Source: a virus
Virus record (IMG/VR): IMGVR_UViG_3300043823_000198
Span: 1-64,000 of that record
DNA length: 64,000 bases
Direction: 5' to 3' (one strand)
Shown here: piece by piece, positions 3,330 to 32,025 of the stretch
Layout of the letters: the number at the start of each line of letters is the position of its first letter
Position numbering within the stretch: position 1 is the stretch's first letter
The notes under the pieces: generated by a model
Seen by the model: only the letters and a program-made list of their open reading frames with translations
Database searches by the model: none
Told to the model about the DNA's origin: nothing
Made by a program: the position numbers and the translations under genes

Positions 3330-3341
3330 GTTTAAATAAAT

Positions 3342-3370
3342 TTGCTTTGTAATATATCTTATAGTAAAAT
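3342..3370 (+). promoter_or_regulatory. Sigma70-like promoter for the oxygenase operon
   Basis: TTGCTT, 17 bases, TAAAAT. The ATG of the next gene lies six bases after the -10 box with no Shine-Dalgarno, so transcription should begin at or next to the start codon. Confidence 0.55.
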
Positions 3371-3376
3371 AAACAA

Positions 3377-3994: not shown

Positions 3995-4005
3995 GGAAAA
4001 TAAAA

Positions 4006-4743
4006 ATGATGAATATGTATACCGACGAAGACAATGATAACACCGCACTTAGAATGGACGGTAAGATTACTGTACTAAACAAACCAAAAACAGGTGAAGA
4101 AGAATGTCATATGTTATGGCCAACACCAATTATCATGGCTAAACCTTTCTCTGATGATTTTATTGATAAACTCAGAGAAGATGTTCAATATTTGTTAAAG
4201 CCAGGAGCTGCTGGCACATTTAATCACACTGATCTTTGGAGTCTACCTGATATTCCTGAGACAATGGTAGCTGTTAAAGAGAAGATGGTTGAATTGATGG
4301 AGAAATACTATCGTCCTCTCGCTGAGATGCCTCTTCCAAAATTCACTGCGTCAAAGGGATATTTCAGATACTCAATGGGTAATAGTGTGTATAGAATCAC
4401 TCCGCATAAGCATGGTAACACACTTGGTGTTGGTATGCTTTATATTACAGCTGATGAAAGAAACCCAGGAAACCTAATGATGATGGACCCACGTGGTGGT
4501 GTTAACTGGACAAATCAATTCACTGCATTCAAGAAAGTTCGTGTTGAGCAGGGATTAATGTTGATTCATCCAGGATATCTAATGCACTTCGTTGAACCTT
4601 CGAACATGGACATGGGTATGCGCTATGGTAACAGACTCGCTATTATTTCAAATCTGCATAGAAACCATGAAGATTTTATTCAGACGCTCAAAGAGAATGA
4701 TGAATATATTGCCAGAACAGCATCTGGAGATCTAGAAGCATAA
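4006..4743 (+). CDS. 2OG-Fe(II) oxygenase-type protein (second in operon)
   Basis: A 245-residue protein with an acidic N-terminal tail. Candidate iron ligands are His134/His136 (TPHKHGN) and His194 (YLMHFVEPS), with Arg210 (GNRLAIISN) as the 2-oxoglutarate anchor. The stretch NPGNLMMMDPRGG and the H-x-H spacing resemble the putative 2OG-Fe(II) oxygenases grouped as TIGR02466. AAGGAAA precedes the start. It overlaps the next gene by one base (TAATG). Confidence 0.72.
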   Translation: MMNMYTDEDNDNTALRMDGKITVLNKPKTGEEECHMLWPTPIIMAKPFSDDFIDKLREDVQYLLKPGAAGTFNHTDLWSLPDIPETMVAVKEKMVELMEKYYRPLAEMPLPKFTASKGYFRYSMGNSVYRITPHKHGNTLGVGMLYITADERNPGNLMMMDPRGGVNWTNQFTAFKKVRVEQGLMLIHPGYLMHFVEPSNMDMGMRYGNRLAIISNLHRNHEDFIQTLKENDEYIARTASGDLEA

Positions 4744-5324
4744 TGTATATTTTTGACGATGTTGTTGACAAAGAAACACAGGACAAAATAGAGAAATCTA
4801 TATTCAGCAAAGAAACCAAGTGGATTTTTGCTAGAACTGTGTTCTATGATGGGACAAACCCTGAGGTAAATGATACTCAAAGAAATTCTTTAATGTCGTT
4901 TACCAATCTGATGATGGATCCAGTTAACCAACCATTATCTGATCCAAACATAGAGTTGTATAAGAAACCTATACAAACAGTCGTTGGTCTCAACGAAATT
5001 CTTCAAATACGTGCTCAATTACAACTGCCTGTCCTAACAGAGAAGAATAAATTATATGGTGTCCCTCATGTTGATGGATATAGAGATAAACCTTACATGG
5101 TTGGTGTCTACTATGTAAATGATTCAGATGGACCTACATATATCTTTAAACAAACTACCAACAACACAACCCCACTGAATGTAATAAACGGAAAACTGGA
5201 TGTTGAAACAACTGTTGAGCCAAAAAAAGGTAGACTCTTGATATTCAATGGTAACATATATCATGCTGTTGGTAAACCAAAGAGAGACGTAAGAGCAGTT
5301 CTTAATTACCATTTTACATTATGA
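4743..5324 (+). CDS. 2OG-Fe(II) oxygenase (prolyl-4-hydroxylase-like)
   Basis: A 193-residue protein with the full facial triad: His109 and Asp111 (PHVDG), His174 (NIYHAVG), and Arg184 (DVRAVLNYHF) for the 2-oxoglutarate carboxylate. The stretch VGVYYVNDSDGPTYIF is typical of phage P4H-like enzymes. It is translationally coupled on both sides (TAATG upstream, ATGA downstream). Confidence 0.78.
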   Translation: MYIFDDVVDKETQDKIEKSIFSKETKWIFARTVFYDGTNPEVNDTQRNSLMSFTNLMMDPVNQPLSDPNIELYKKPIQTVVGLNEILQIRAQLQLPVLTEKNKLYGVPHVDGYRDKPYMVGVYYVNDSDGPTYIFKQTTNNTTPLNVINGKLDVETTVEPKKGRLLIFNGNIYHAVGKPKRDVRAVLNYHFTL

Positions 5325-5977
5325 ACGATTTAACAATTTTAGATAATTTTTACTCTGATCCTATTGATTTCATTCAAAATTTGAATGGAGATTATCCTAT
5401 ATCTGGATGTGGTAATGGCAAAAGAAGTTTAGATTTAAGCGAGATAAACAAACAGATTTATTATGATGTTCGTTCTGCTATCTTCAGAGCACATAACATT
5501 GATGGGAGAGGATTAACATTTGTTACATACTTCACTGAGCATGCGTACGATGAAATTGAGATTTTCAACCAAAGGTTTGTTCATATCGATGGTAGAAACC
5601 CAGATAGATTGTTGACGTCTTTCAAGGAATATAATATCATACTTGGTGGTCAGATATATCTAACACCAGATCCTGATCCAGAAGCAGGAACAAAGATTTA
5701 TTCTTTGAAACCAGAAATAAACTGGACAGAAAGCGAGCAAGTTGATAGGTTAGTGAATCACTACAGAAGACCAAGAGATTTATACGATAGCGGTTCTATC
5801 GGAATAGAACAGTACAAAACGTTGCATGCTGAATATCATAACAATTTTAATTTAACATGTGATGTTAAAAATGTCTTCAATAGATTGGTTTCTTGGAAAG
5901 GTAAAACATTGCACAGTGATGTTGTTACAAAGAACATGCCAAAACGATTAAGCCAATATTTTTTTGTGATGCGATAA
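5321..5977 (+). CDS. DUF6445-like / 2OG oxygenase-fold protein
   Basis: A 218-residue protein whose H-x-D (His88, Asp90 in FVHIDGR), distal His198 (KTLHSD) and Arg209 fit the same iron-binding scheme. It has a longer insert between strands (residues 115-180), as in the DUF6445 group. The ATGA overlap at the start and TAATG at the end place it firmly in the operon. Catalytic activity is not certain. Confidence 0.65.
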   Translation: MNDLTILDNFYSDPIDFIQNLNGDYPISGCGNGKRSLDLSEINKQIYYDVRSAIFRAHNIDGRGLTFVTYFTEHAYDEIEIFNQRFVHIDGRNPDRLLTSFKEYNIILGGQIYLTPDPDPEAGTKIYSLKPEINWTESEQVDRLVNHYRRPRDLYDSGSIGIEQYKTLHAEYHNNFNLTCDVKNVFNRLVSWKGKTLHSDVVTKNMPKRLSQYFFVMR

Positions 5978-6621
5978 TGTATACAGTAATTGATAATTTT
6001 TATGAACAAGAACAATTTGATAAACTTCAAAGGATGCTGCTTGGACCAAGGATGCCATGGTTCTATATGCCTCAGATCTCTGTCCCACCATGGATAACTG
6101 TTAATGATCCTAATGCTGTTGAGACAGATGGGCTACATAATGTGATTGTTGATAGAGAAAGAAATTATATTAGTCAAGAGTATAGGGTTCTTTATCCATA
6201 TCTTGTAAAAATGATGGCAATTCTTGGATACACAGAAGAAAATCTCTATCGAGTAAGAGCAGCAATGAAATGGCCGAAGCCAGGATTTGGTTCTGATATG
6301 TATAACATCCCACACATTGATGCGACATGGCCAAATAAAACAATTGTTTTCTACCTCAATGATAGCGATGGTGATACAAGACTGTTTCATCAGCGCCAAC
6401 AAAAGATGGACGTAACGATGGAACAACTTCCATCAGATGTTTCAGAAGAACAGTTAATTTTATACGGAAACCAGTTTATCAAAGAAGGTTTCACTGTTAT
6501 GGAAACAGTTACGCCTAAGGCAAACAGATTGTTAATTTTTGATGGTATGATGTATCATACTGCTGGTATTCCAGTAAACACTGAGCGCAGAGTTATTTTA
6601 AACATAAACATACGAGAATGA
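5977..6621 (+). CDS. 2OG-Fe(II) oxygenase (prolyl-4-hydroxylase-like)
   Basis: A 214-residue protein with His113/Asp115 (IPHIDAT), His194 (MMYHTAG) and Arg205, preceded by IVFYLNDSDGDTRLF, a strand pair shared with the product of 4743-5324. The two are probably paralogues. It overlaps both neighbours by 1-4 bases. Confidence 0.76.
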   Translation: MYTVIDNFYEQEQFDKLQRMLLGPRMPWFYMPQISVPPWITVNDPNAVETDGLHNVIVDRERNYISQEYRVLYPYLVKMMAILGYTEENLYRVRAAMKWPKPGFGSDMYNIPHIDATWPNKTIVFYLNDSDGDTRLFHQRQQKMDVTMEQLPSDVSEEQLILYGNQFIKEGFTVMETVTPKANRLLIFDGMMYHTAGIPVNTERRVILNINIRE

Positions 6622-7241
6622 TGGAAATATATAACACACCACTTCCGCTATATTTTAAAAATCATGTTCCTGTTCAGAACTGGGATGCGATAAGAAATAA
6701 ATGTGATGATCTTCTCGCTATCATGCCAGACCAACATGGGTTAGAGAGCGGCAATGCTAAGAGTTCTTACGATGTTAGAGATGTCAACGGAAATTTAATA
6801 AACCCACTCGGCATTGATTGTTTCAATTATATCAGACCACACATATGGGAAGCTGTTAAATTTGCGGCAGAGCATTGGTTGATGGAATACGATAAGTACG
6901 ACATTACTCAGTGTTGGACTAATCGTCACCTTCCTGGTGGTAAGACACTGTTCCATAAACATGGCGCTTCAACACAGATTGTCATTGCATATTACCTTAA
7001 TGTTCCAGAGAATAGTGGAAATCTGTTGATCGTTGATCCACTCGAGTATCATTGGAGTGGATACCACAGCGTTAGGAATGATATTAACAATCAGAACGGA
7101 TGGGTAGTGCCAGTTAAAACAGGAGACATGGTTATCATGCCAAACTTTCTGATTCATGGCACAGAAGAAAACACAAGCAATGATAATAGGTATGTGTTAA
7201 CAGTAAACATACAGGGATCTTTTAAAAAGGAGATAATATGA
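6618..7241 (+). CDS. 2OG-Fe(II) oxygenase-type protein (sixth in operon)
   Basis: A 207-residue protein with His113/His115 (LFHKHGA), His180 (FLIHGTEEN) and Arg191 (NRYVLTVNI), and NSGNLLIVDP between them. It belongs to the same H-x-H subtype as the second gene of the operon. It ends in ATGA with the next, unrelated small gene. Confidence 0.72.
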   Translation: MMEIYNTPLPLYFKNHVPVQNWDAIRNKCDDLLAIMPDQHGLESGNAKSSYDVRDVNGNLINPLGIDCFNYIRPHIWEAVKFAAEHWLMEYDKYDITQCWTNRHLPGGKTLFHKHGASTQIVIAYYLNVPENSGNLLIVDPLEYHWSGYHSVRNDINNQNGWVVPVKTGDMVIMPNFLIHGTEENTSNDNRYVLTVNIQGSFKKEII

Positions 7242-7713: not shown

Positions 7714-7931
7714 GCGACGGAGGAAAGGGTTCAGCGCCAAGACCATTCAGCGTTGACGCACAAACATTTGCAAATAATTGGGACGCTATCTTTAAAAAAT
7801 CTCCAAGAGAGATTGATGATGCCAAGGCAGAACAGGAAGAATTTGATAAAATCCAACAAAATGATCCATTTGGTCCACCACCAGCTGGAGGTATGACAAC
7901 CCAGCAGGGAGAAAGTCTTGGAAGTAATTGA
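7710..7931 (+). CDS. Conserved T4-like phage protein, unknown function
   Basis: A 73-residue protein opening MSDGGKGSAPRP, followed by a short Asn/Trp helix (FANNWDAIF), an acidic helix and a Gly/Pro tail. Proteins with this opening and the NNWDAIF block occur in many T4-like phages. No function is known to me. Confidence 0.65.
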   Translation: MSDGGKGSAPRPFSVDAQTFANNWDAIFKKSPREIDDAKAEQEEFDKIQQNDPFGPPPAGGMTTQQGESLGSN

Positions 7932-7956
7932 TCTAGTAAAATACAGAGATATGCAT

Positions 7957-8085
7957 ATGAGCACCTATACATATTTTTGGAAAGAAAATAATCGGATTGT
8001 CAGTCCTTTCTTTGACAAGGAAGAAGACGCCATGGAATGGGCAAAACAATATGGGAAACCAATAAAATTAAACCAAAAGACTTAA
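7957..8085 (+). CDS. Small hypothetical protein
   Basis: A 42-residue ORF. The ATG at 7957 is preferred because AGAG lies eight bases upstream; the in-frame ATG at 7951 is too close. It contains FDKEEDAMEWAKQYGKP, a likely helix. It ends just before a terminator. Confidence 0.55.
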   Translation: MSTYTYFWKENNRIVSPFFDKEEDAMEWAKQYGKPIKLNQKT

Positions 8086-8097
8086 AAAAGACTTAAT

Positions 8098-8122
8098 AAC
8101 CCTACTTTTAGTAGGGTTTTTT
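8098..8122 (+). terminator. Rho-independent terminator
   Basis: Hairpin aaccctact / agtagggtt with a short loop and a T-run. It ends the operon that starts at 3377 and forms the left half of a stem-loop/promoter cassette. Confidence 0.85.
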
Positions 8123-8131
8123 ACATTTTAC

Positions 8132-8159
8132 TTTACATTAATACAAAAATAGGTATAAT
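8132..8159 (+). promoter_or_regulatory. Sigma70-like early promoter
   Basis: TTTACA, 16 bases, TATAAT, then attactgtattgtttgaaa. The same arrangement and nearly the same sequence recur at 13665-13692. Confidence 0.8.
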
Positions 8160-8189
8160 TACTGTATTGTTTGAAAATATGGAGTAATT

Positions 8190-8927
8190 ATGAAACTGTT
8201 AAGCACTGGAAATCCAAAAGTATTGAAGGGTCAAAAACAAGGATATAATACCTATATTCTTCATCTCTCTCCTGCCGATGTTTCTGGTTTTGGTAATACC
8301 TGCCCCAAAGCTACCGTAGGATGTAAATCTGCCTGCTTAAATACAGCTGGTCGTGGTGGTATGTTTAAGAAAGGCGAAACCACAAATGTAATTCAAAAGG
8401 CACGTATCCGCAAAACAGGGTTGTTCTTCACTGATAGAAACCAATTCATGCTTGACCTGTTCGATGACATCCGCAAAGCAATCAAACAATCAGAGAAACT
8501 AGGATTGATCCCTGTTTTCCGTCTAAATGGTACCAGCGACATAAGTTGGGAGAAATATACCCTCAATGGGCAAACTGTTTTTGAGGCATTCCCCAATGTT
8601 CAGTTCTATGACTACACCAAGATCCTCGGTCGCAAGGTAAGCCACATTCCTAATTACCATCTGACCTTTTCTGCTGCCGATGGTAACGATGCTGATGTGC
8701 TGTCAGCAATCGCTCAGGGTTATAATGTTGCAACTGTATTTGGTATTAAGAAAACAGAACCAATGCCAGAATCCTACAATGGTCTCCCAGTGTTTAATGG
8801 TGATGAGTCTGACCTACGCTTTCTTGACCCAAAGGGAGTTATTGTAGGGTTGTATGCCAAGGGAAAAGCCAAGAAAGATACAACTGGTTTCGTGAAATAT
8901 CCAACAATCATGCTCAAAGCAGCGTAA
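8190..8927 (+). CDS. GP88-family phage protein
   Basis: A 245-residue protein resembling the phage gene product 88 family. It has a Cys cluster near the N-terminus (Cys38, Cys45 and Cys49, within NTCPK...GCKSACLNTAGRG), a central FRLNGTSDISWEK, and YDYTK followed by the C-terminal sheet. The three closely spaced Cys could hold a metal or cluster; that is inference. The family is widespread in phages and its role is unknown. TGGAG precedes the ATG; transcription is from the adjacent promoter. Confidence 0.68.
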   Translation: MKLLSTGNPKVLKGQKQGYNTYILHLSPADVSGFGNTCPKATVGCKSACLNTAGRGGMFKKGETTNVIQKARIRKTGLFFTDRNQFMLDLFDDIRKAIKQSEKLGLIPVFRLNGTSDISWEKYTLNGQTVFEAFPNVQFYDYTKILGRKVSHIPNYHLTFSAADGNDADVLSAIAQGYNVATVFGIKKTEPMPESYNGLPVFNGDESDLRFLDPKGVIVGLYAKGKAKKDTTGFVKYPTIMLKAA

Positions 8928-8936
8928 GGAGAAAAT

Positions 8937-9440
8937 ATGACAAGTGCTGAATATTCAAAAGAATGGCGAGATAATAATCGGGAAAGGGTCGCTGAATATG
9001 AAAAGAGACGATACTTAAAAGCACAGACAGATCCATCTATATTTTTGACGGAAATTTATCGCTCTTGTAAGAGAAGCGCACTTAAACGTAAAATAGAATT
9101 TAACATTACAAAAGAATATGTGCGTGAGCTGTTGAAAGAGAGTAAAGGAAAATGCCAAATGAGTGGGGTTACGCTGTCAATGAAACGGAACGATATTAAC
9201 AGAGCATCAATAGACAGGATTGATTCAATGAAAGGATATATCAAGGGTAATCTTCAGATTGTAACAGCTCAGGTTAACCTCGGTATGAATGCGTTCAAAA
9301 AGGAAGATTTCATCCGTATGTGCAGGGCTGTTGTTGAGAAACACAAAGGATCTTTGTATGAGTACGAACTCTCTGACACGACTGAAAAATGTGAGGAAAT
9401 GATCCTTTTTGGGGCTGGAATAGAAGATTTTGTAGAATAA
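8937..9440 (+). CDS. HNH-type homing endonuclease-like protein
   Basis: A 167-residue protein with a basic N-terminus (EWRDNNRERVAEYEKRRY), a KGKCQMSG motif, and the diagnostic ASIDRIDSMKGYIKGNLQIV-type segment at about residues 80-100, in which D-R-I-D and G-N-x-Q belong to HNH enzymes of phage. Only one of the usual zinc Cys is evident. It is probably a mobile endonuclease inserted after the GP88 gene, ten bases downstream with AAGGAG. Confidence 0.72.
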   Translation: MTSAEYSKEWRDNNRERVAEYEKRRYLKAQTDPSIFLTEIYRSCKRSALKRKIEFNITKEYVRELLKESKGKCQMSGVTLSMKRNDINRASIDRIDSMKGYIKGNLQIVTAQVNLGMNAFKKEDFIRMCRAVVEKHKGSLYEYELSDTTEKCEEMILFGAGIEDFVE

Positions 9441-9463
9441 CCCTACAATCTCAGGGGTTATTC
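9435..9463 (+). terminator. Intergenic hairpin, terminator-like
   Basis: A nine-pair stem (gaataaccc / ggggttattc). The T-run after it is poor. It has the same AACCC...GGGTT core as the hairpins at 8098, 13629 and 14312. Confidence 0.55.
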
Positions 9464-9513
9464 TGCTCTGTAAGTCGTTGATTTATAATGGTTTTTTCCG
9501 AGAGAGAAAGTGC

Positions 9514-9541
9514 TTTACATTTACCACAATTCTAGTATAAT
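9514..9541 (+). promoter_or_regulatory. Sigma70-like early promoter
   Basis: TTTACA, 16 bases, TATAAT, followed by the shared leader attactctattgatttgaaaa. It drives the AAA ATPase gene. Confidence 0.8.
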
Positions 9542-9571
9542 TACTCTATTGATTTGAAAAAGGACTATATT

Positions 9572-10462
9572 ATGAAAACAGAAATCCGCTTTAACCCCTC
9601 TACTGGTAAATACGAAGGTTATTTTAATGGTTCTCTCGTTAAACGTACCCAGGATAAAAAATTCCTAGAGAAAATGCTGGCTAATCTAGAACGTGATGCT
9701 CAGACAGCTACCTCCTCTGTTAAGAATAACCAGTTTGATATTAACACTCGCTTTGGTTTTGTAGAGAAACTTGTGACAATGGTGGCTAATGGTGTTCAGC
9801 CCTCCGCTGTTATCACTGGTGAAGGTGGTCTGGGTAAAACTTATACTGTTACCAAAACTCTTGAGTCTCATGGCTACCGAGATATCTCTGATCTGGCTGA
9901 TTTTCAAGTCGGTGAAGTTATTAATGGTCGTAAGTGCTTTACCTTTGTTAAGGGTTATTCAACAGCCAAGGGTTTATACCGTACTCTTTTCGAAAACAAT
10001 AAGTCAATTATTGTTTTTGATGACTGTGACGCTGTTCTCAAGGATCCAGTTGCCCTGAATATTCTGAAAGGTGCGCTTGACTCATACGGTAAACGTATTA
10101 TCTCCTGGAATGCTGATATGCGTGATGAGGATTTACCTAAGTCTTTCAATTTTGAAGGTCGTGTGATCTTTATCTCTAATTTGAGCCAAGATTCTATTGA
10201 TCAGGCGATTCGCTCTCGTTCAATGATGATTGACCTTTCTATGACTGTTGATCAAAAGATTGACCGTATGGAATATATTTCCAAGATCCCTGAGTTTCTC
10301 CCTGAGTATGATGCCTCTGTTAAATCTGATGCGCTTGCTCTTATCCGTGCTATTAAGAACGATGTGAAAGAAATTTCTCTCCGTACCCTTATCGCTGTTA
10401 GCAAGGTTCGTGCTTCCAATAAAGAATGGAAAGACCTTGCAACTTATATGTTGACCGCTTAA
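9572..10462 (+). CDS. AAA-type ATPase
   Basis: A 296-residue P-loop ATPase. Walker A is GEGGLGKT at residues 83-90, Walker B is IIVFDD near 146-151 (followed by CDA), sensor-like FISN follows, and an RSRS arginine-finger candidate lies near residue 210. The N-terminal 60 residues form a separate small domain. Start is at 9572 because AAAGGA lies correctly upstream; the in-frame TTG at 9554 overlaps that site. Single-subunit AAA proteins of this size occur in phage accessory regions; target unknown. Confidence 0.78.
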   Translation: MKTEIRFNPSTGKYEGYFNGSLVKRTQDKKFLEKMLANLERDAQTATSSVKNNQFDINTRFGFVEKLVTMVANGVQPSAVITGEGGLGKTYTVTKTLESHGYRDISDLADFQVGEVINGRKCFTFVKGYSTAKGLYRTLFENNKSIIVFDDCDAVLKDPVALNILKGALDSYGKRIISWNADMRDEDLPKSFNFEGRVIFISNLSQDSIDQAIRSRSMMIDLSMTVDQKIDRMEYISKIPEFLPEYDASVKSDALALIRAIKNDVKEISLRTLIAVSKVRASNKEWKDLATYMLTA

Positions 10463-10475
10463 TAAGGAGATTGAT

Positions 10476-10832
10476 ATGAGTCTATATAATATGTTATTTG
10501 GTGAAGGTGATAGTTCTGCCTTCCTATTGGGTTTGCTTGGCAAGAATAGTGGCGACTTTGGTCGCTATCGTGATATCTATGTGACTGATGACCATATTGT
10601 TGTTCACACTCGCAATGGTGGTGGTAATCGTGAAGATTACGAGGATGTATTTGAAGAGATGGGAGATCACCCTCTCTACTCACACGATGAGGATGATGAC
10701 TTCGATTGCACTTACGCAAACATCTACTTCAAGCACCCACCTGAGTACAGTGAATTGTTGAAGGAAATGGCAAAGGGTACAGTTACTCCTGCCGATAAGT
10801 GGAAAATGTTGTTTGAAGCATTGGAGAAATAA
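10476..10832 (+). CDS. Conserved hypothetical phage protein
   Basis: A 118-residue acidic protein starting MSLYNMLFG, with a strong AAGGAG. It has a central acidic run (SHDEDDDFDC) and a C-terminal helix. Proteins with this opening occur in diverse phages; function unknown. It follows the AAA ATPase by 13 bases and abuts the next gene by TAATG, so it may work with the ATPase. Confidence 0.65.
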   Translation: MSLYNMLFGEGDSSAFLLGLLGKNSGDFGRYRDIYVTDDHIVVHTRNGGGNREDYEDVFEEMGDHPLYSHDEDDDFDCTYANIYFKHPPEYSELLKEMAKGTVTPADKWKMLFEALEK

Positions 10833-11029
10833 TGGGACGCATGAAAGAAACCTATGAGTTGGAAGAACAGAATGACCTCAGAATACTGGACATGTACAAT
10901 GAGGGTTTGAAACCAACCAGCATTGCAGCTGTTCTAAGAATACCACTGATCAATGTATATGAAGTAATAGAACAGAATTTTGACTTCTCCAATCCGGAAA
11001 TTGTCCAATACGATGAGGATGAACTATGA
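10832..11029 (+). CDS. Small helix-turn-helix-like protein
   Basis: A 65-residue protein whose middle (ILDMYNEGLKPTSIAAVLRIPLINVYEVIEQ-type pattern, residues 18-48) reads like a helix-turn-helix. It could be a small regulator. It overlaps the next gene by four bases. Confidence 0.55.
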   Translation: MGRMKETYELEEQNDLRILDMYNEGLKPTSIAAVLRIPLINVYEVIEQNFDFSNPEIVQYDEDEL

Positions 11030-11529
11030 ACCTAATGACTCTACGAGAATTTGCGGCACACAAGGACGGAACCTATGTGTCAATGGACCTGGATGAACAG
11101 TCCCGAGCGTTGCTTGATAATTTTGTTGAGATGAACCTTGGGTTAACAGAGCGTGTTGATCCGAGCACATATCACATTACTATTATCTACTCACGAACAC
11201 CTGTTCCAAGCGCAGAACATCATGTGGGATATGGTAGCGAACAACCAGCAAAGGTTACAGGCTACGAAGTATTCCCAACCAAGAATGACGGCAAGTGTCT
11301 AGTAATGCGCTTACAGTTCCCTTTTGCTGAATTGTTGAACAAGCAATTGACCGCTGAGGGAGCGACCAGCGACTATGACGAATACAAACCACATCTAACT
11401 CTTGCATATGATATTACTGAGGAGATTGACCCTGAGACCCTACCAATCCCAAAATTTTTCCTGACGTTTGATTCAGTGAAAGTTGCACCACTAGATCCAC
11501 AATACACACCAGCAAACAAATGGAAATAG
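11026..11529 (+). CDS. 2H phosphoesterase, candidate Acb1-like anti-CBASS protein
   Basis: A 167-residue protein with the two H-x-T motifs of the 2H phosphoesterase fold: His50-x-Thr52 (STYHITIIYSR) and His123-x-Thr125 (YKPHLTLAYD). Length, motif spacing and the small-phage-protein context resemble T4 gp57B (Acb1), which cleaves cyclic nucleotide signals of CBASS immunity. RNA-ligase-like or 2'-5' ligase-like family members are the alternative. It lies in a run of early small genes, the usual place for anti-defence proteins. Confidence 0.62.
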   Translation: MNLMTLREFAAHKDGTYVSMDLDEQSRALLDNFVEMNLGLTERVDPSTYHITIIYSRTPVPSAEHHVGYGSEQPAKVTGYEVFPTKNDGKCLVMRLQFPFAELLNKQLTAEGATSDYDEYKPHLTLAYDITEEIDPETLPIPKFFLTFDSVKVAPLDPQYTPANKWK

Positions 11530-11744
11530 AACAATATACAAAACAGGTAATAGAACGTGCAAAGCAATTGCAACAATTCACGGTACATGTACCAGTAAAG
11601 AAAGGATGGCTACCAAACGGCAGCATCCCCTATGATCTAATGGTAATTAAAAACACTGCTCACATTAGAGTTTACGACATAAGTGAGCAGGCTGCAATAA
11701 AACAAGTACAACGATGGATGGAGTCAATGGATGAAGACCAGTGA
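11520..11744 (+). CDS. Hypothetical protein
   Basis: A 74-residue protein overlapping the 2H phosphoesterase by ten bases. It has an N-terminal amphipathic helix, then a beta-rich centre (VHVPVKKGWLPNG, AHIRVYDI) and a C-terminal helix. Not recognised. Confidence 0.55.
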   Translation: MEIEQYTKQVIERAKQLQQFTVHVPVKKGWLPNGSIPYDLMVIKNTAHIRVYDISEQAAIKQVQRWMESMDEDQ

Positions 11745-25271: not shown

Positions 25272-25866
25272 CTTTAAACAAATTTTCCCACATTGTCAAG
25301 ACCCAGAAGGATGGGTCAAGGCATTTACTGACACTCTTGCTGGTTATGGTATCGACCAACCACATCGTGTCGCAGCTTTTATTGGCCAGTGTGGTCATGA
25401 ATCTGATGGATGGACAACTTTCGAAGAGAACTTACACTATTCCGCAGAAGGATTAGAAAAGACTTTCGGTTCACACTTCCATGGTGACGCAGAAGAATAT
25501 GCTCATCAACCAGAAAAGATTGCCAATCGTATCTACTCTAATCGTATGGGTAATGGAGATGAAGCATCTGGTGATGGATGGAAATATCATGGACGTGGTC
25601 CAATCCAATTAACTGGCAAAGCAAATTACACTAAATTTGCACAAGAGATGTTCGATGACTGGCAAAATTTACTTGATAATCCTGATTGGGTAAGTTATGA
25701 TAAGTCTTTCTCTCTAATGTCAGCAATTTGGTTCTGGAACGCACATAATCTAAACAAATATGCCGACGAAGGTGATATCAAAACAATGACTAAGATCATC
25801 AATGGTGGCTATCTTGGTTTAGAAGAACGTGAAGAACTTTACAATAAATTATTACCATACTGTTAA
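25255..25866 (+). CDS. GH19 chitinase-fold endolysin
   Basis: A 203-residue protein matching the glycoside hydrolase 19 domain used by phages as a peptidoglycan muramidase: catalytic Glu candidates Glu49 (GHESDG) and Glu58 (TFEENLHYS), and YHGRGPIQLTGKANY (111-125). No signal peptide, so a holin must release it; a holin-like gene is at 40438-40947. The start overlaps PhoH. Confidence 0.88.
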   Translation: MIAVDNFKQIFPHCQDPEGWVKAFTDTLAGYGIDQPHRVAAFIGQCGHESDGWTTFEENLHYSAEGLEKTFGSHFHGDAEEYAHQPEKIANRIYSNRMGNGDEASGDGWKYHGRGPIQLTGKANYTKFAQEMFDDWQNLLDNPDWVSYDKSFSLMSAIWFWNAHNLNKYADEGDIKTMTKIINGGYLGLEEREELYNKLLPYC

Positions 25867-26516
25867 TGCGAAATTTTATATATTATGATTTTCCAAAACT
25901 TGAACGTGTTACAACCGATGGGATGCGATTATACAATACCCCATCGGGTAAACCATATCCTTCCGTTACAACAGTCACAGGACTCCACAATGCAAAGGGG
26001 ATTGCAGAATGGCGTCGCAGAGTTGGTGAAGAAGAAGCAAACAGAATCTCAACCAGAGCAAGCTCAAGAGGAACTCGCATTCACAAATATTGCGAGGACT
26101 ATCTACGAGGAAATATATTCGAAGCCGATATGTTCGACCTCGAAATGTTTAACTCAATTAAACCCCAGCTCGACCAAATCGACAATATTCACTGTCTGGA
26201 GACTCCGCTATATTCAGACTTTTTACAAGTCGCAGGAACAGTTGACTGTATCGCAGAATTTCAAGGTAAATTATCTGTTATAGACTTCAAAACAGCAAGT
26301 AAACCAAAAGACCGAGATGATATTTACAATTATTTCATGCAAACAGCAGCTTATGCTGTCGCTTTTGAAGAACGAACTGGAATACCAATTGGTAGATTAG
26401 TCATCATCATGGCAGTTGAAAATGATGACCCAAGATGGTTTATTGAGAAACGTGATAATTGGATTGCTGGTTTTAGAAAACTTCGCTTAGAGTATAAAAA
26501 TCTAAAAGGTATTTGA
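25866..26516 (+). CDS. PD-(D/E)XK exonuclease (Cas4/RecB/MGME1-like)
   Basis: A 216-residue protein. A conserved SSRGTRIHKYCEDYL helix is followed by GTVDCIAEF (Asp), LSVIDFKTA (the D-x-K catalytic pair) and QTAAYAVAFEE, the order of motifs in PD-(D/E)XK exonucleases of the RecB family. It probably acts in recombination or host-DNA breakdown. Overlaps the endolysin stop by TAATG. Confidence 0.8.
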   Translation: MRNFIYYDFPKLERVTTDGMRLYNTPSGKPYPSVTTVTGLHNAKGIAEWRRRVGEEEANRISTRASSRGTRIHKYCEDYLRGNIFEADMFDLEMFNSIKPQLDQIDNIHCLETPLYSDFLQVAGTVDCIAEFQGKLSVIDFKTASKPKDRDDIYNYFMQTAAYAVAFEERTGIPIGRLVIIMAVENDDPRWFIEKRDNWIAGFRKLRLEYKNLKGI

Positions 26517-26517: not shown

Positions 26518-27231
26518 GTGTATTTTGATAATTATCCAGAGTTTATTGATAATGATGTAAGAAAAAACAGAGAACAACTTACAGTAACCTCTGAATCTTT
26601 ATCTAAGCGATGTTCTGTTATTGTTCCAGAACATCTAGTTAAAAACAAAACTGTTCTTGATTTGGGATCAGCGCTTGGTGCCATGGGACATTATTCTTTA
26701 CAACATGGCGCAATATCATATACTGGTGTTGAGATTCAAAAGAACTACAGAGATAAATCTATAGAGTTGTTGGGAAGAAATAATGCAAATTTTAAAATAC
26801 TTAATAGTATAAATTCAGTAACTGGTAAGTATGATGTTGTATTAGCCTGTGGCTTTATACACGCATTTTTTGATGTTTTTGACATATTGAAAAAAATATG
26901 TTCTTTCTCTGACAAATACGTTATAATTGAAACGCATAACCCATCATTTGGCGATTCACCAGTAATATCGTTTAATCCAAATGGAAATATGATTAGGAAT
27001 GATGGTACGTCTTTTAATTTTAGCGGACTTGAGACACTACCAAATAAAATAGCAATTGATATTATAATGTCAGTTAATGGTTTTGTTGTTGATGAAAGAT
27101 TATTTCCAGAAAAAATAAAGAATACTCATGATGGGTATAACTCAAACGACCAAAATTCAAGGTTTATTTGTCGATACATAAAAGGTAAACGATCAACCAC
27201 TCTTGAGGATGTAGTAAATGTGGGAATTTGA
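26518..27231 (+). CDS. SAM-dependent methyltransferase (cassette gene 1)
   Basis: A 237-residue class I methyltransferase: VLDLGSALGAMG (about residues 46-57) is motif I, TGVEIQ the acidic end of strand 2, and YDVVLACGFIHAF motif IV. It starts with GTG directly after the nuclease stop. It has no target-recognition domain, so a small molecule or protein substrate is likely. It overlaps the next methyltransferase by 14 bases. Confidence 0.75.
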   Translation: MYFDNYPEFIDNDVRKNREQLTVTSESLSKRCSVIVPEHLVKNKTVLDLGSALGAMGHYSLQHGAISYTGVEIQKNYRDKSIELLGRNNANFKILNSINSVTGKYDVVLACGFIHAFFDVFDILKKICSFSDKYVIIETHNPSFGDSPVISFNPNGNMIRNDGTSFNFSGLETLPNKIAIDIIMSVNGFVVDERLFPEKIKNTHDGYNSNDQNSRFICRYIKGKRSTTLEDVVNVGI

Positions 27232-27838
27232 TGATTCAGTTGCCAAAAGGTTTCAACATGAGGCGATCTGCCACATTCCAGATTATGAAAGAGTAATTGA
27301 TATCTGTTTAACTTATACTGATATGAATTACAGTAAAGAAGCATTTATTATTGATATTGGTAGTGCTCTTGGATATACGATGGATAAATTTATTTCAGCA
27401 GGGTATAATAATGTGTATGGTATTGAAATAAGTGAATCTATGCGTAATTCTTCTCTACATAAAGAAAGGGTATATAATCCATTATTCTTTCCACCAACAA
27501 AATTGTGGGATGTTATTATAATGAATTGGACGTTACATTTTATAGAGAATAAAGTTGAATATTTGAAAAACATATATTCTGGATTAGAAGACACTGGGAC
27601 TTTTATTCTTTCTGATAAAACAGTACAGTCAGAAAGAATAAAAGAAATGTATTATAGATTTAAATCAGAAAATGGAGTTTCTGATGAGTATATTAAGCAA
27701 AAAGAGATTATGTTACAGGATAGTATGTTTATCGATAGAATGGACTGGTATCTAGACGCCTTAGAACATGTTGGTTTTACAGTAGAAATTATAAACAGCA
27801 AATATGGCTTTCATACATTTTTGTGTAGAAAAAGATGA
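27218..27838 (+). CDS. SAM-dependent methyltransferase (cassette gene 2)
   Basis: A 206-residue class I methyltransferase with IIDIGSALGYTM (motif I, about residues 44-55), YGIEISESM and WDVIIMNWTLHFIE. The layout recalls the small CmoA-like SAM enzymes, but a carboxy-SAM activity cannot be claimed. Overlap with both neighbours shows coupled translation. Confidence 0.72.
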   Translation: MWEFDDSVAKRFQHEAICHIPDYERVIDICLTYTDMNYSKEAFIIDIGSALGYTMDKFISAGYNNVYGIEISESMRNSSLHKERVYNPLFFPPTKLWDVIIMNWTLHFIENKVEYLKNIYSGLEDTGTFILSDKTVQSERIKEMYYRFKSENGVSDEYIKQKEIMLQDSMFIDRMDWYLDALEHVGFTVEIINSKYGFHTFLCRKR

Positions 27839-28110
27839 GTATGTACGAAAAAGACCATTTAGAAAAAGCTCGTTTGTATTCAAATATGGTAGAGAATAAA
27901 ATATTCTACTTTAAACATATGTGGTGGGCTCTTCACTCTGCATTTCTTTTAATGTTTTGGTCGATATTGATGTTGATTCATGCAGTCATCCCTCAGTTTG
28001 TTGGATTTTATGTTATCGAGAAACTTGTTTCATATCTAAAACATTTAAAAGAAATACATCCAGAAGATCCACTACTGAAGAAAGTTACTTTCGATGAATC
28101 CGCTAATTAA
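27835..28110 (+). CDS. Small membrane protein (DUF6356-like)
   Basis: A 91-residue protein: an N-terminal helix, FKHMWWALHSAFLLMFWSILMLIHA (one long hydrophobic region, about residues 27-50), IPQF, and a charged C-terminal helix. The H-x4-H pattern and LIHAVIP are typical of DUF6356 proteins. Unknown function. Overlaps upstream by four and downstream by 17 bases. Confidence 0.6.
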   Translation: MSMYEKDHLEKARLYSNMVENKIFYFKHMWWALHSAFLLMFWSILMLIHAVIPQFVGFYVIEKLVSYLKHLKEIHPEDPLLKKVTFDESAN

Positions 28111-28714
28111 GATAAATCTGCCGAATCTATCTTCTGAGTTAGAATCTAAACTTATTTCTATCGCAAATGGATATCAGCAATTTAAATATAGTAATGGAAC
28201 TATTGGGCAAAAATATTATGAGAAATCCGAATCAGTAGACGATATTGAGAATTTGAAACGACTCTATGGATTCAATGATATACCCCAACATAGATCTCGT
28301 GAAATTGGTAATCTTACTAATGATGTTTTGCGTGAAATGGATTGTTCTTTTATGGAGAACATCAATATGTATGTTCAGGTTATTGAAAGTAGAGATTCTT
28401 TTATACATACTGATGGTGGGCATAGAATATGTTCATTATATTATCTTATATCGGACAATGGCTCGAAAACAACATTTTACAAATCAGATAAACCTCCTGT
28501 TATGTCAACAGTTTGGAATCCAATGGACGTTTACCCGTATTACTCTTACATAATGAAACAACACGAATGGCATGCGTTTTCCCACAACGATATACATAGC
28601 GTAAACGATATATCTGGTTTGAGGGTTGGATTGATACTTGATTTTACACCTAAATTTAAAAAGTATGAAGATTTTGTTAAATTTCTTAAGAGAGCGAATC
28701 TAATAAGTGAATAA
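28094..28714 (+). CDS. 2OG-Fe(II) oxygenase-type protein (cassette gene 4)
   Basis: A 206-residue protein. His105/Asp107 (SFIHTDGGH) start the iron site, ICSLYYLISDNG follows, and the distal His is one of those in EWHAFSHNDIHSV (160-170), with Arg177 (SGLRVGLILDF). The position inside a methyltransferase/aminotransferase cassette suggests a hydroxylation step in a shared pathway. Confidence 0.66.
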   Translation: MNPLIKINLPNLSSELESKLISIANGYQQFKYSNGTIGQKYYEKSESVDDIENLKRLYGFNDIPQHRSREIGNLTNDVLREMDCSFMENINMYVQVIESRDSFIHTDGGHRICSLYYLISDNGSKTTFYKSDKPPVMSTVWNPMDVYPYYSYIMKQHEWHAFSHNDIHSVNDISGLRVGLILDFTPKFKKYEDFVKFLKRANLISE

Positions 28715-29510
28715 TTACCCTGCGTATAAAAACGGAACATACTGTCAGATTAAAGATCTGACAGTTTCAATTCTAGACTTTGGTTTTATCCATTCAGACG
28801 CAACTTATGATGTTATGTCTGTTAAAAATGGTGTCGTCAAAGATTTTGATGAACACGTGAACCGATTTATGGATAATTGTAATTTTTGGGGTCTTAATAC
28901 TCCAAACGATTTCCATATTAAAGAAATTATTATGGAGTTGGTAAATACATCTCCAACTAAAGACTTATTGGTTTGGATTTGCGTAACACGTGGAACACCG
29001 ACCACAGGAAATCCAAGAGATCTTGGTTCATGCGAACAAAACTTCTTCGCATACACAAAACCTTACTATGGGTTCAATCTAACAAATACTGCCACTGTTT
29101 GTCTAGCCAAACAAAGAAGAAATACCGCAATCAATCAAAGAAGAAAGAATTTTGCTTGGAATGATTTAACTCTTGCTCAGTTTGAGGCGAATTCAAGAGG
29201 ATTCGACACAGCTATTCTATTGGATGATAATGGTTTCGTGACTGAAGGTCCAGGATTCAACGTTGGGATGATACGAGGCGAACATATTATTGCTCCAGCT
29301 AAAAATTGTTTGCTTGGTGTAACTATGTCAAAGGTTAAAGAATTGGCTGAAGATAAGTTTTATTATTACAACGTAACACCAGAAACATTCAAATCAGCAG
29401 ATGCTATGTTCTTGACATCAACTGCTGGTGGTGTTATTTGTGTTACTAAGTTTGAAGACACTGTGTTTGAGAATAATAGATTATTATCATGGTTACAGAA
29501 CAACATATAA
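28707..29510 (+). CDS. PLP-dependent class IV aminotransferase
   Basis: A 267-residue fold-type IV PLP enzyme like branched-chain or D-amino-acid aminotransferases and aminodeoxychorismate lyase. Lys147 (RRKNFAWNDL) is the Schiff-base Lys, Glu180 (VTEGPGFNVG) the pyridine-nitrogen partner, and LLGVTMSKV binds phosphate. Substrate unknown. It starts with GTG in an overlap of eight bases. Rare in phages. Confidence 0.84.
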   Translation: MNNYPAYKNGTYCQIKDLTVSILDFGFIHSDATYDVMSVKNGVVKDFDEHVNRFMDNCNFWGLNTPNDFHIKEIIMELVNTSPTKDLLVWICVTRGTPTTGNPRDLGSCEQNFFAYTKPYYGFNLTNTATVCLAKQRRNTAINQRRKNFAWNDLTLAQFEANSRGFDTAILLDDNGFVTEGPGFNVGMIRGEHIIAPAKNCLLGVTMSKVKELAEDKFYYYNVTPETFKSADAMFLTSTAGGVICVTKFEDTVFENNRLLSWLQNNI

Positions 29511-30313
29511 ACGGAACCTACTATAAATATTACCAAGAAGAACAAAACAAACATTTATTGTTTTTACTTCCTGGCCAATCCCTTTCTCCGAGAGCATTCT
29601 GGGAATTTAAACTACCAGAAGGTAAGACACATGTAGATTATTTTGTCGAGTCTGGTATAGACGTAATTCTGTTTGACCCTGTTGGATATGGCAATAGCAA
29701 AGATTCATATCCTTATAATAGAAATGGATACGCAGAGCAAATAAAAACCGCAACAAATACTATACATAAAGAATATATTTGTAAAACTCTGTTTGGGTTT
29801 TCTTCTACTACAGCACCAGCGTTAATCTCTGGTAAACATGGTGGGTTTTTTGATAAAGTAATTATACACAGCCCATGCATCAGAAACGAAGATAGATATT
29901 TTATCCACCATGGTTTAGTCTTCTCAACGAATATGCATAGATTAAAAGAAGAACGCATTTCGAAAGTCAGCGACAGGCTTATCCCTAAATCTAATAAGAT
30001 AGATAACTGGGATAAATCTGTTATTGATGTTATTGGCAAAGATAGTTGGGAAGTGCCATCTCAGGTTGTTTATGATATTAACAACTTTTGGTTTTATCAT
30101 AAACAACATGGGTTTGATCCGAGCGAAGTTTCTCCTATTATGGTTATAAATGGAGAATATGACTTTGAAGTTACTGGTGGTGGGTATGATGTTTTTAAAA
30201 GTTTATTTCCATCATTTGTTGAGCGAATCGTTCCAAATAGTACACATTTTTCTATGTGGGAAAACAATTCAAATATTACAAGAGAATATATAATCAATTA
30301 TTGTTTAGGATAA
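29489..30313 (+). CDS. Alpha/beta hydrolase
   Basis: A 274-residue alpha/beta hydrolase: an LLPGQSLSPRAFW oxyanion region, a FDPVGYGNSK loop, nucleophile Ser105 (GFSSTT), Asp225 (NGEYDFEV) and His253 (NSTHFSMWE). It could be an esterase, thioesterase or lipase-like enzyme; no secretion signal. It overlaps the aminotransferase gene by 22 bases, so it is probably part of the same pathway. Confidence 0.8.
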   Translation: MVTEQHINGTYYKYYQEEQNKHLLFLLPGQSLSPRAFWEFKLPEGKTHVDYFVESGIDVILFDPVGYGNSKDSYPYNRNGYAEQIKTATNTIHKEYICKTLFGFSSTTAPALISGKHGGFFDKVIIHSPCIRNEDRYFIHHGLVFSTNMHRLKEERISKVSDRLIPKSNKIDNWDKSVIDVIGKDSWEVPSQVVYDINNFWFYHKQHGFDPSEVSPIMVINGEYDFEVTGGGYDVFKSLFPSFVERIVPNSTHFSMWENNSNITREYIINYCLG

Positions 30314-30314
30314 T

Positions 30315-30971
30315 ATGTTAGATTTTAAAGTTACTCCAATATTCCCAGTTGGTTTATATCAAGCGAGATTGGATTCTAATGTAATGATGAGTTCATTACC
30401 GCACCTTAGAGAGTTTGTTAAAGAAAGCACATATTCCAAAGATATGGTTGTGCACAGCGTTAGTTCGTTTAACAGATATATTTTAGAGAGCCAACAATTA
30501 ACTTCTCTAAAACTTCATCTTGAAGAGCATCTAGAACAATACAAGCGTCATGTTATTGGAGAAACTACTGATAGGTTTAAACTTTACATAACAATGTCAT
30601 GGTGTACAGGATTGTTGCCAGGAAATACGCACCAAGAACATAATCACGCAAACTCTATTATATCTGGTGTTATGTATTTTGATAACCCACCAAATGCTTC
30701 TCCATTTGTTTTACATAAAGATGATTCTTCTTGTGGTGGTTTTATAAATCTTTCTCCAACAACTAATACGGATTTCTCAAAGATTATGCACTTTGTTCCA
30801 CCTATAAATGGGACATTATTATTATTTCCTTCTCATTTAAAACATAGAGTTCCAAAGAACGAAACAGAAACACAAAGGAACAGTTTGGCCTTTGACACGT
30901 TTTTTGAGGGTGAGATTGGAGCAAGTCGAAATATTTTAAAAATGTCTAGAATCAATCAACAGGGGATTTAA
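30315..30971 (+). CDS. 2OG-Fe(II) oxygenase-type protein (TIGR02466-like)
   Basis: A 218-residue protein with His109/His111 (QEHNHAN), SGVMYFDNPP, distal His177 (SHLKHRVPKN) and Arg188 (QRNSLAFDTF). This is the H-x-H subtype also seen at 4006 and 6618. Two bases separate it from the hydrolase. Confidence 0.75.
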   Translation: MLDFKVTPIFPVGLYQARLDSNVMMSSLPHLREFVKESTYSKDMVVHSVSSFNRYILESQQLTSLKLHLEEHLEQYKRHVIGETTDRFKLYITMSWCTGLLPGNTHQEHNHANSIISGVMYFDNPPNASPFVLHKDDSSCGGFINLSPTTNTDFSKIMHFVPPINGTLLLFPSHLKHRVPKNETETQRNSLAFDTFFEGEIGASRNILKMSRINQQGI

Positions 30972-31199
30972 ATGAAATTTTATGAAAAAGCGATGCGATC
31001 ATTGGGTAAAGTGGTTACTTGGCGCATTCTTGTTACAATTACCAATTTTATTGGTGGATGGTTGGCGTCTGGTTCTTGGACCGTTGGTCTTGGGGTTGTA
31101 TCTTTTGCTCTGGTTGTTAACAGTGTAATTTATTATTTCCACGAACGAGCATGGAATGCAATTGATGCTGGTAAGGAAATACTTGACAAACAAGAATAA
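30972..31199 (+). CDS. DUF2061-like small membrane protein
   Basis: A 75-residue protein with two transmembrane segments, KVVTWRILVTITNFIGGWL and a central hydrophobic block, ending in YYFHERAWNAID. The K-x2-T-W-R-I and H-E-R-x-W-N motifs mark DUF2061. Unknown function. Its 3' end holds the promoter of the tmRNA gene. Confidence 0.75.
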   Translation: MKFYEKAMRSLGKVVTWRILVTITNFIGGWLASGSWTVGLGVVSFALVVNSVIYYFHERAWNAIDAGKEILDKQE

Positions 31200-31211
31200 A
31201 TAGAGTATAAT
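31183..31211 (+). promoter_or_regulatory. Sigma70-like promoter of the tmRNA gene
   Basis: Consensus TTGACA, 17 bases, TATAAT. The expected start is near 31218, a few bases before the tmRNA acceptor piece. It overlaps the last codons of the upstream gene. Confidence 0.8.
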
Positions 31212-31217
31212 TAAAGG

Positions 31218-31283
31218 AATTGTTGTAATCCCTTCAAAGCGAAGGACTTCTGGACGTGGGTTCGACTCCCACCATCTCCACCA
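31218..31283 (+). ncRNA. ssrA: Permuted tmRNA, acceptor (3') piece
   Basis: A tRNA-like 3' end without any D-arm or anticodon arm: ttctggac, then the T-arm gtggg-ttcgact-cccac, acceptor strand catctcc, discriminator A and CCA ending at 31283. The seven acceptor bases pair with ggggatg at 31372-31378, which lies downstream rather than upstream, so the gene is circularly permuted. A short hairpin (cttc/gaag) precedes it. In established two-piece tmRNAs this piece carries the alanine. Confidence 0.88.
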
Positions 31284-31371
31284 GAAGTATTCTAAACTGG
31301 ACGCAGGATCAGAGAAGGTTGAAAGTGGGTTGATCACCACAAATAAGCTGGAGATTAAGAATATTTCTGAT
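31284..31371 (+). ncRNA. Intervening segment of the permuted tmRNA precursor
   Basis: An 88-base spacer between CCA and the 5' end of the coding piece. Bases 31283-31293 (agaagtattct) pair with 31358-31368 (agaatatttct) in an 11-pair helix with one G-U, extending the acceptor stem; an inner hairpin is gtgg/ccac. This is the expected precursor fold removed by RNA processing. Confidence 0.75.
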
Positions 31372-31540
31372 GGGGATGCCATGGTTTCGACAGGGGTAGA
31401 TAGTAGAGAAGGCAACACGGTAGGCGATGACCGTAAATCAAGCAAACTAAGTAAATGCAAACGACTCTGTCTTCGCATTAGCAGCCTAAACGCTGCTTAG
31501 GGTTTCGGTAGGTTTCCTCGTAACAGAATAACCTACCATT
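31372..31540 (+). ncRNA. ssrA: Permuted tmRNA, coding (5') piece with tag reading frame
   Basis: Starts ggggatgccatggtttcgac, the conserved 5' part of tmRNA. A stem acggt/accgt lies where the first pseudoknot belongs. The tag frame at 31457-31489 reads ANDSVFALAA then TAA, close to the E. coli tag ANDENYALAA, with resume codon GCA. A hairpin agcagc/gctgct surrounds the stop as in helix 5 of tmRNA, followed by ggtagg...cctacc. The 3' limit is estimated. SmpB is not in this window and may come from the host. Confidence 0.9.
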
Positions 31541-31560
31541 TCTAAACATTAAGGAGTATT

Positions 31561-32025
31561 ATGAAAAAGAGTATTTTGTTAGTAGCTTTGTTAGCAACTT
31601 TCGGTGTTGCACAAGCTGTTGAAGTTGGTGTTCTTGGCGCCAAAGATGAATCTCATCAAGATCAAGGTAAAGATCATTCTCATTACGGTTTAACTGTAGG
31701 TGAACAATTTGGTAAAGTATCTGTCGAAGGCGAATTTTCTGTTTTGAATCAAAGTGGTAATGATCAAGAAAAGTATTCTGTTATTGCTGGATACGATGTA
31801 TATAAATTAGGATTCGTTACTCTTACTCCTAAAGCTGGTGTTTCTTATTTAAGTAACACAGGAAATGTTGCTGATGGCTATGCTATTCGTGCTGGAGTTG
31901 GAGCTTCTGTTCCACTTAGCGATAGCGTAAAGGCAGGTGTTGATTTTTACCATCAGTATGGACAAAATCGTGTAAGCGCATATGATGGTAACACTATTCA
32001 AGCGAGCGTTAAGTACGCATTCTAA
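31561..32025 (+). CDS. Outer-membrane beta-barrel-like exported protein
   Basis: A 154-residue protein with a classic signal peptide (MKKSILLVALLATFGVAQA, cleavage after residue 19 or so). The mature part alternates polar and hydrophobic residues in about eight strands and ends in SVKYAF, with the C-terminal Phe typical of outer-membrane proteins. Perhaps it alters the infected cell surface, for example superinfection exclusion. AAGGAG upstream. It directly follows the tmRNA and may share its promoter. Confidence 0.72.
   Translation: MKKSILLVALLATFGVAQAVEVGVLGAKDESHQDQGKDHSHYGLTVGEQFGKVSVEGEFSVLNQSGNDQEKYSVIAGYDVYKLGFVTLTPKAGVSYLSNTGNVADGYAIRAGVGASVPLSDSVKAGVDFYHQYGQNRVSAYDGNTIQASVKYAF

Follow-up and report, generated by a model that had tools for sequence, protein, structure and literature searches.

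T4-like phages usually carry auxiliary genes singly, and the auxiliary metabolic genes of T4-like cyanophages include lone 2-oxoglutarate (2OG) oxygenases. Phages reportedly also bear biosynthetic gene clusters, to judge from the title "Phages carry interbacterial weapons" as it appears in papers that cite it. As a kind, phage-borne metabolic clusters are already known, and so is the superfamily of each enzyme considered below. In phage S-B43, CmoA, CmoX, and the AsnB-like amide ligase CmoY act in a 5-carboxymethylcytosine pathway leading to glycyl-carboxymethylcytosine (PMC12783734). Here, we describe a block of eight genes in a 64,000-nucleotide stretch (the window) that forms the start of the 165,633-bp IMG/VR virus record IMGVR_UViG_3300043823_000198. 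The virus is T4-like, as it carries a gp23 capsid gene, and its permuted transfer-messenger RNA (tmRNA), which matches a betaproteobacterial model, makes a betaproteobacterial host likely. The gene set agrees with the one listed in an earlier note on this DNA: two S-adenosylmethionine (SAM)-dependent methyltransferases (MT1 and MT2), two small membrane proteins (MEMB and DUF2061), two 2OG-Fe(II) oxygenases (ORF4 and OG5), a class IV aminotransferase (AT4), and an alpha/beta hydrolase (ABH). The locus resembles the phage-borne clusters and the cyanophage auxiliary genes in linking metabolic genes on a phage, but it involves an aminotransferase, seven 2OG oxygenases, and PP-loop enzymes, a set encountered in none of the records and papers searched. 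We lean towards a reading in which the block forms the core of a modular biosynthetic pathway that T4-like phages encode and the product of which would be an amine- or amino acid-derived metabolite or conjugate.

An eight-gene block inserted between a nuclease gene and the tmRNA gene

The eight open reading frames (ORFs), at positions 26,518 to 31,199, all lie on the plus strand and are spaced, from the upstream nuclease gene onward, by +1, -14, -4, -17, -8, -22, +1, and 0 bp. The tight packing claimed in the earlier note therefore holds: no gap is wider than 1 bp, and the largest overlap measures 22 bp. In four related T4-like phages that also carry AT4 (G002, G003, G004, and G011), a homolog of the nuclease gene (65 to 84% identity) directly abuts the tmRNA gene with no gene between them, so that the eight-gene block is a discrete insertion between the two. 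In these same phages, AT4 is found tens of kilobases from the nuclease-tmRNA site, and its context in G002 is c13-c22-AT4-ABH-gp32-RNase H. This second site is empty in the genome under study, where c78, c13, and gp32 are successive at 154.1 to 156.0 kb. Since each site is empty where the other is filled, AT4-ABH occupies the two sites reciprocally, and AT4 was present as one copy per genome in all 13 records.

The insert has a G+C content of 32.9%, the lowest among 119 segments of equal size. For all genes in common with the related cluster L002, the ratio of nonsynonymous to synonymous divergence (dN/dS) ranges from 0.05 to 0.18, which indicates that the shared genes are under purifying selection. 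Synonymous divergence (dS) from L002 is 0.28 for AT4, much below that of MT2, MEMB, ORF4, and ABH (1.7 to saturated), suggesting a recent exchange of AT4 alone. Together with the precise empty site in four phages and the recurrence of the gene order in unrelated contigs, the low dN/dS values argue that the cassette is more than a chance assembly.

Other uncultivated phages share the gene order

No relatives of the AT4, ABH, MT1, ORF4, and MEMB families were recovered by tblastn in 50,697 phage records, the AT4 matches being IlvE-type enzymes with 21 to 29% identity. Matches from a nucleotide search of phage records were confined to the nuclease flank or the tmRNA region, and profile scans built on two-sequence alignments recovered only L002. 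The TEGxGFNV motif, searched as a DNA pattern, returned 70 viral stretches, nearly all of them coding for AT4 homologs, which were dereplicated to 47; the upstream neighbor could be tested in 38 and the downstream neighbor in 41. The gene immediately upstream of AT4 was MEMB in 19 cases, c15 (which reads as a likely second hydrolase) in 9, and ORF4 in 3, while ABH was immediately downstream in 17. Because these counts are seeded on AT4, two more scans took patterns derived from MEMB and ABH as their starting point. AT4 follows in all seven new MEMB orthologs and precedes 9 of the 12 testable new ABH orthologs. All MEMB orthologs found in viral contigs adjoin AT4, as its upstream partner, or sit one gene off. 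The overlaps are conserved as well (-8/-11 bp and -22/-25 bp, the latter between AT4 and ABH in most relatives), and these adjacencies strengthen the proposal, already made in the earlier note, of a linked pathway unlike known phage systems.

The order MT1-MT2-MEMB-(2OG)-AT4-ABH is common to this cassette, L002, L175, and L186. In L068 and L195, which cover two parts of the same contig, the cassette order is kept from an extra oxygenase onward (2OG-MEMB-ORF4-AT4-ABH-H252-PP1-2OG-2OG). A search for the same order in other phages, as the earlier note had suggested, thus yields several uncultivated phages with six to eleven collinear genes. Since the same order recurs in them, the genes belong together, and the conserved colocalization of several enzyme genes is that of a phage biosynthetic gene cluster. 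The earlier note would have given up functional linkage had relatives carried the genes scattered and singly. The core adjacencies are kept, but some parts also move on their own: OG5-DUF2061, PP-loop-transporter, and an oxygenase tandem travel as separate submodules.

Orthologs of two other islands adjoin the cassette in relatives

The related clusters are longer than the block itself. L002 adds H252, PP1, and a sodium:solute symporter. The order in L186 is OGf-MT1-MT2-MEMB-ORF4-AT4-ABH-OG5-H252-PP1-hydrolase-TctC-2OG-DUF2061-PP2-x-nuclease-x-tmRNA, and that in L175 is four 2OG-like genes-MT1-MT2-MEMB-2OG-AT4-ABH-OG5-H252-PP1-x-DUF2061-PP2-x-radical SAM. Genes that immediately neighbor the cassette in L175, L186, and L195 have orthologs in the genome under study, where these make up two further islands. 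Island 2 (65,572 to 69,295 of the genome, past the end of the window) holds a radical SAM gene with 36% identity to that of L175, a DctP-like gene that matches, with 68% identity across 65 residues, a gene lying upstream of the cassette at the edge of L186, and a PP2 gene with 50 to 51% identity to those of L175 and L186. Island 3 is a run of five tandem 2OG-type genes within the window (Table 1). Counted across all three islands, the predicted pathway would comprise about 17 genes. Whole or as rearranged pieces, it is spread over many uncultivated phages, and no cultured phage among those searched had it.

The DctP-like gene (67218 to 68192 of the genome) encodes a TRAP solute-binding domain (PF03480, 1e-40). 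Its protein has no obvious signal peptide, and its gene is flanked by the radical SAM and PP-loop genes, which suggests an intracellular, metabolite-binding role.

PP-loop genes occur in AT4 phages of the ABH clade; none was found in the five MEMB-clade records examined or in G009 and G012. Only 1 of the 50,697 phage records gave a PP-loop match, namely, Pseudomonas phage Cygsa01 (L209, 8736 to 10885), in which two PP-loop genes annotated as mnmA, one of them distantly PP1-like, are separated by a small gene and lie near baseplate genes. Their annotation as mnmA (tRNA thiouridylase) is doubtful.

The phage aminotransferases share a tryptophan lacking in bacterial relatives

As the earlier note had stated, AT4 retains its catalytic residues: K147 and E180, the latter facing PLP (pyridoxal 5′-phosphate) N1, are kept in 20 of 20 sequences. 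In the PDB, AT4 best matches (R)-transaminases and their relatives (E of about 1e-35). It resembles the (R)-selective amine transaminases (for example, AT-omegaTA of Aspergillus terreus; PDB 7dbe/7wud) in its PF01063 domain, catalytic lysine, PLP glutamate, HSDxTY motif, and equivalent of Trp184. Residues were compared with the positions described for AT-omegaTA (His55, Tyr60, Phe115, Glu117, and Trp184) and Escherichia coli branched-chain aminotransferase (BCAT; Tyr95 and Arg97) (PMC3907554), with equivalents assigned by the HSDxTY and KNFxW motifs and the alignment of residues 88 and 90 hand-anchored on a TRG motif. H29, Y34, and W151 correspond to His55, Tyr60, and Trp184 and are kept in all phage AT4s that cover the position. 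Residue 88 is leucine or phenylalanine where AT-omegaTA has Phe115 and BCAT has Tyr95. The phage enzymes differ from AT-omegaTA at residue 90, which is tryptophan in place of Glu117 (Arg97 in BCAT); this Trp90 is found in 45 of 45 phage enzymes and 0 of 79 bacterial relatives, so their substrate pocket is probably distinct. AT4 does not fit the IlvE branched-chain aminotransferases: Tyr95 and Arg97 are replaced by L/F88 and W90, and the scores fall far below the IlvE cutoffs.

In a quick tree, the phage AT4s form one clade apart from the sampled bacterial sequences (SH-aLRT 100, to be read with a long-branch warning). Among the neighborhoods of bacterial AT4 homologs, in which automatic ORF clusters were too noisy and were set aside, none had ABH alongside, and the sole MEMB case was L104 (PBDY01000027.1). 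This 106-kb contig from a GTDB "Gammaproteobacteria" metagenome-assembled genome carries a phage-type AT4, and because it also carries gp23, it is a T4-like phage contig binned with that genome. Class IV aminotransferases in phages are not reported in the literature searched, which included few subscription papers, and neither this specific pathway nor the exchange of its modules nor the Trp90 aminotransferase appears to be described there. The phage-only Trp90 aminotransferase provides a sequence marker for spotting such phages in metagenomes.

A proposed modular pathway for an amine- or amino acid-derived product

In the pathway that we propose, AT4 would aminate a keto substrate by the ping-pong PLP chemistry of its family. 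Some of the seven 2OG oxygenases would hydroxylate the AT4 product, and MT1 and MT2 would methylate it, as the chemistry of these families suggests. The PP-loop enzyme, which resembles ATP-dependent ligases and has an SGG[IL]DS motif, may adenylate and ligate, forming an amide, and ABH, judging by its family, would strip or release an acyl or ester group. The two membrane proteins, MEMB and DUF2061, could anchor the enzymes at the inner membrane or move the product across it. Such a product might be useful in infection as an inhibitor, a signal, or a modifier of the virion or envelope.

Several observations weigh against this proposal. The genome under study is without the H252-PP1 pair present in L002, L175, L186, and L195, so that what its pathway yields may differ from the product of the others or be shorter. 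In marine phages of the MEMB clade, AT4 keeps quite different company (radical SAM, IMPDH/GMPR, and AMP-ligase genes) and may accordingly serve several pathways. The low synonymous divergence of AT4 relative to its neighbors implies that the pieces exchange separately. L172, L187, and L192 have ABH without AT4, but they are fragments of 44 to 69 kb. The ligase step has the PP-loop motif as its sole basis, and sequence reveals neither substrate nor product.

A more specific form of the proposal is put forward tentatively, as a possibility that we hold with clearly less confidence: an approximately 17-gene, phage-specific, natural product-like pathway built around a new class of phage aminotransferase (the Trp90 type) and its dedicated membrane partner would make a multiply hydroxylated amine conjugate, with interchangeable modules traded between phages, and marine T4-like phages would put the same AT4-MEMB core to use alongside other tailoring enzymes. 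In the genome under study, a lytic-type phage spends about 17 genes, including seven 2OG oxygenases, on what is apparently a single multistep synthesis. The conserved pieces offer defined constructs for testing. A product acting on the host would bring a new kind of effector chemistry to phages; one that modifies the virion or nucleic acid would count as a new modification.

Alternative explanations

One alternative is post-translational or envelope modification, in which the 2OG oxygenases, methyltransferases, radical SAM enzyme, and ligase would decorate a host surface polymer or a protein of the virion, for instance, a tail fiber. Island 2 does lie among tail fiber-like genes, one end of the L175 cluster adjoins a tail fiber-like gene, and AT4-OG5 in L011 is beside structural genes; the sole match of the PP-loop genes in a cultured phage (that in Cygsa01) has baseplate genes and large tail-like genes nearby. 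However, chance places many genes of T4-like phages near fibers. The cassette itself sits between a nuclease gene and the tmRNA gene, and the group B AT4-ABH pair sits beside gp32 and RNase H. The nearest folds to ORF4 also include hydroxylases of free amino acids. We consider this explanation unlikely, although it is the strongest of the alternatives.

Unlinked auxiliary metabolic genes, each acting alone on host metabolism, may also have piled up at a tmRNA hot spot. The insertion is indeed site specific, at the tmRNA gene, the insert is low in G+C, and the OG5-DUF2061 and PP-loop-transporter pairs are found at other sites too (L051 and L074). Yet the order and overlaps repeat in different phages and at different sites, and the remaining pathway genes reappear in the other two islands of this genome, which makes such a pileup distinctly improbable.

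Hypermodification of nucleic acid became a serious rival because MT2 is a CmoA homolog and a phage CmoA/CmoX/CmoY pathway has been described. In that case, the CmoA-like MT2, its partner methyltransferase MT1, and an asparagine synthetase-like ligase would attach the AT4-made amine to a modified DNA or RNA base. The likeness to the S-B43 system, which combines a phage CmoA with an AsnB-like amide ligase, extends to the PP-loop enzymes of the related clusters, which resemble the synthase domain of asparagine synthetase. In E. coli CmoA, Arg199 binds the carboxylate of carboxy-SAM (PMC3663124). The equivalent residue, with the numbering anchored on the equivalents of Asn132 and Glu164 in the YecO alignment, is Glu163 in all four MT2 orthologs. 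A CmoX-type C5-methyltransferase (PF00145) was found in 0 of 13 AT4-phage records, with the control positive in 10 of 14 genomes, and a thymidylate synthase-type dUMP/dCMP hydroxymethylase (PF00303) was not found in this genome, with the control positive in 9 of 14. MT1 had no match to CmoB or C5-methyltransferases among those listed. DNA hypermodification as the first choice was rejected on the Arg199, PF00145, and PF00303 tests, and a modified nucleotide is therefore the weakest of the products that the earlier note had considered alongside a lipid-linked amine and a signaling metabolite. Hypermodification keeps a low probability, the lowest of the three alternatives, because nucleic acid could still be a target of MT1 in some other way.

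Gene products and flanking features

Table 1. Positions in the window of the cassette genes, their flanks, and island 3
Feature	Positions	Strand	Assignment	Basis or remark
Left flank	25866..26516	+	PD-(D/E)XK exonuclease	Adjoins tmRNA in related phages without the insert
MT1	26518..27231	+	SAM-dependent methyltransferase, 237 aa	GxG motif LDLGSALGA; GTG start 1 bp past nuclease stop
MT2	27218..27838	+	CmoA-family methyltransferase without the carboxy-SAM-binding arginine	phrog_4752 5e-31; PDB YecO/CmoA 2e-17 to 4e-17
MEMB	27835..28110	+	Small DUF6356-like membrane protein	One strong hydrophobic segment; invariant H28, H49
ORF4	28094..28714	+	2OG-Fe(II) oxygenase	H105-x-D107...H168...R177; fold
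AT4	28707..29510	+	Class IV PLP aminotransferase, (R)-amine-transaminase type	PF01063 E 9e-32
ABH	29489..30313	+	Alpha/beta hydrolase	S105/D225/H253; model; overlaps AT4 by 22 bp
OG5	30315..30971	+	2OG-Fe(II) oxygenase	PF13759 E 7e-21; TIGR02466 above cutoff
DUF2061	30972..31199	+	Two-helix membrane protein	PF09834 4e-14; ends within the 5′ end of the tmRNA gene
Right flank	31191..31580	+	Permuted betaproteobacterial-type tmRNA, tag ANDSVFALAA	RF01850, RF04321
Island 3 gene 1	4006..4743	+	2OG oxygenase-like	PF13759 weak; other OG5-like genes of AT4 phages are 23-28% identical
Island 3 gene 2	4743..5324	+	2OG oxygenase	55% to L175 885-1466, a member of the oxygenase tandem shortly before MT1
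Island 3 gene 3	5321..5977	+	DUF6445/2OG-like	56% to L175 2133-2786, directly upstream of MT1
Island 3 gene 4	5977..6621	+	2OG oxygenase	76% to L195 858-1499, directly after the PP-loop gene in L195/L068
Island 3 gene 5	6618..7241	+	2OG oxygenase	PF13759 2e-11; 64% to L195 242-853, next in L195/L068

Among the methyltransferases, MT2 exceeds the Pfam cutoffs for PF13489 and PF08241, and the Pfam methyltransferase scores of MT1 are below them; the MT1 orthologs share 77% (L002), 57% (L175), and 51% (L186) identity with it. MEMB scores 22.1 bits for DUF6356, against a Pfam gathering cutoff of 24.4. ORF4 has no Pfam match, but the iron-binding residues and C-terminal arginine listed in Table 1 are invariant in three orthologs. 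In a model of moderate confidence built from these orthologs (pLDDT, the predicted local distance difference test score, of 75.7), the top 50 VIA matches listed were all 2OG oxygenases, the best being proline 3-hydroxylase 1e5r (Z 8.2). On the strength of its iron-site residues, C-terminal arginine, and modeled double-stranded beta-helix fold, ORF4 is assigned as a 2OG oxygenase.

The Pfam alpha/beta hydrolase match of ABH is weak, and its model, built from 17 homologs (pLDDT 85.3), matches generic alpha/beta hydrolases in the PDB. Its catalytic residues are kept, as the earlier note had stated for this enzyme too: D225 and H253 are invariant, and S105 is replaced by cysteine in two distant homologs. 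OG5 orthologs stand immediately past ABH in L175 (45% identity) and L186 (47%). DUF2061, which shows two hydrophobic segments, belongs to the clusters of L002, L175, and L186.

The tmRNAs of related phages encode the tags ANDAQFALAA, ANDSVYALAA, and ANDETAYLMAA. An antisense ORF at 30999 to 31478, opposite the tmRNA gene, is probably the usual spurious ORF of such loci.

Other gene contexts in AT4 phages

Outside the window, the genome under study has three tryptophan halogenase-type flavoprotein-like genes (106309 to 107886, 143532 to 145082, and 159345 to 160862). Tryptophan halogenase-like genes also occur beside AT4 in the marine phages L026, L054, and L063. Four marine AT4-phage contigs (L023, L028, L070, and L075) have, by sequence, a TctA-like and TctC-like tripartite tricarboxylate transporter pair near AT4. 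The marine contig L033 carries, at 2886 to 11738, an Asp-hydroxylase-like gene, the unassigned gene c2, MEMB, AT4, two 2OG-like genes, a methyltransferase, a B12 radical SAM, a radical SAM, an IMPDH/GMPR, and an AMP-ligase gene, which probably constitute a different pathway reusing the MEMB-AT4 core. In L051, L066, and L074, genes that read as IscU- and IscA-like iron-sulfur assembly genes were located downstream of the dCMP deaminase gene.

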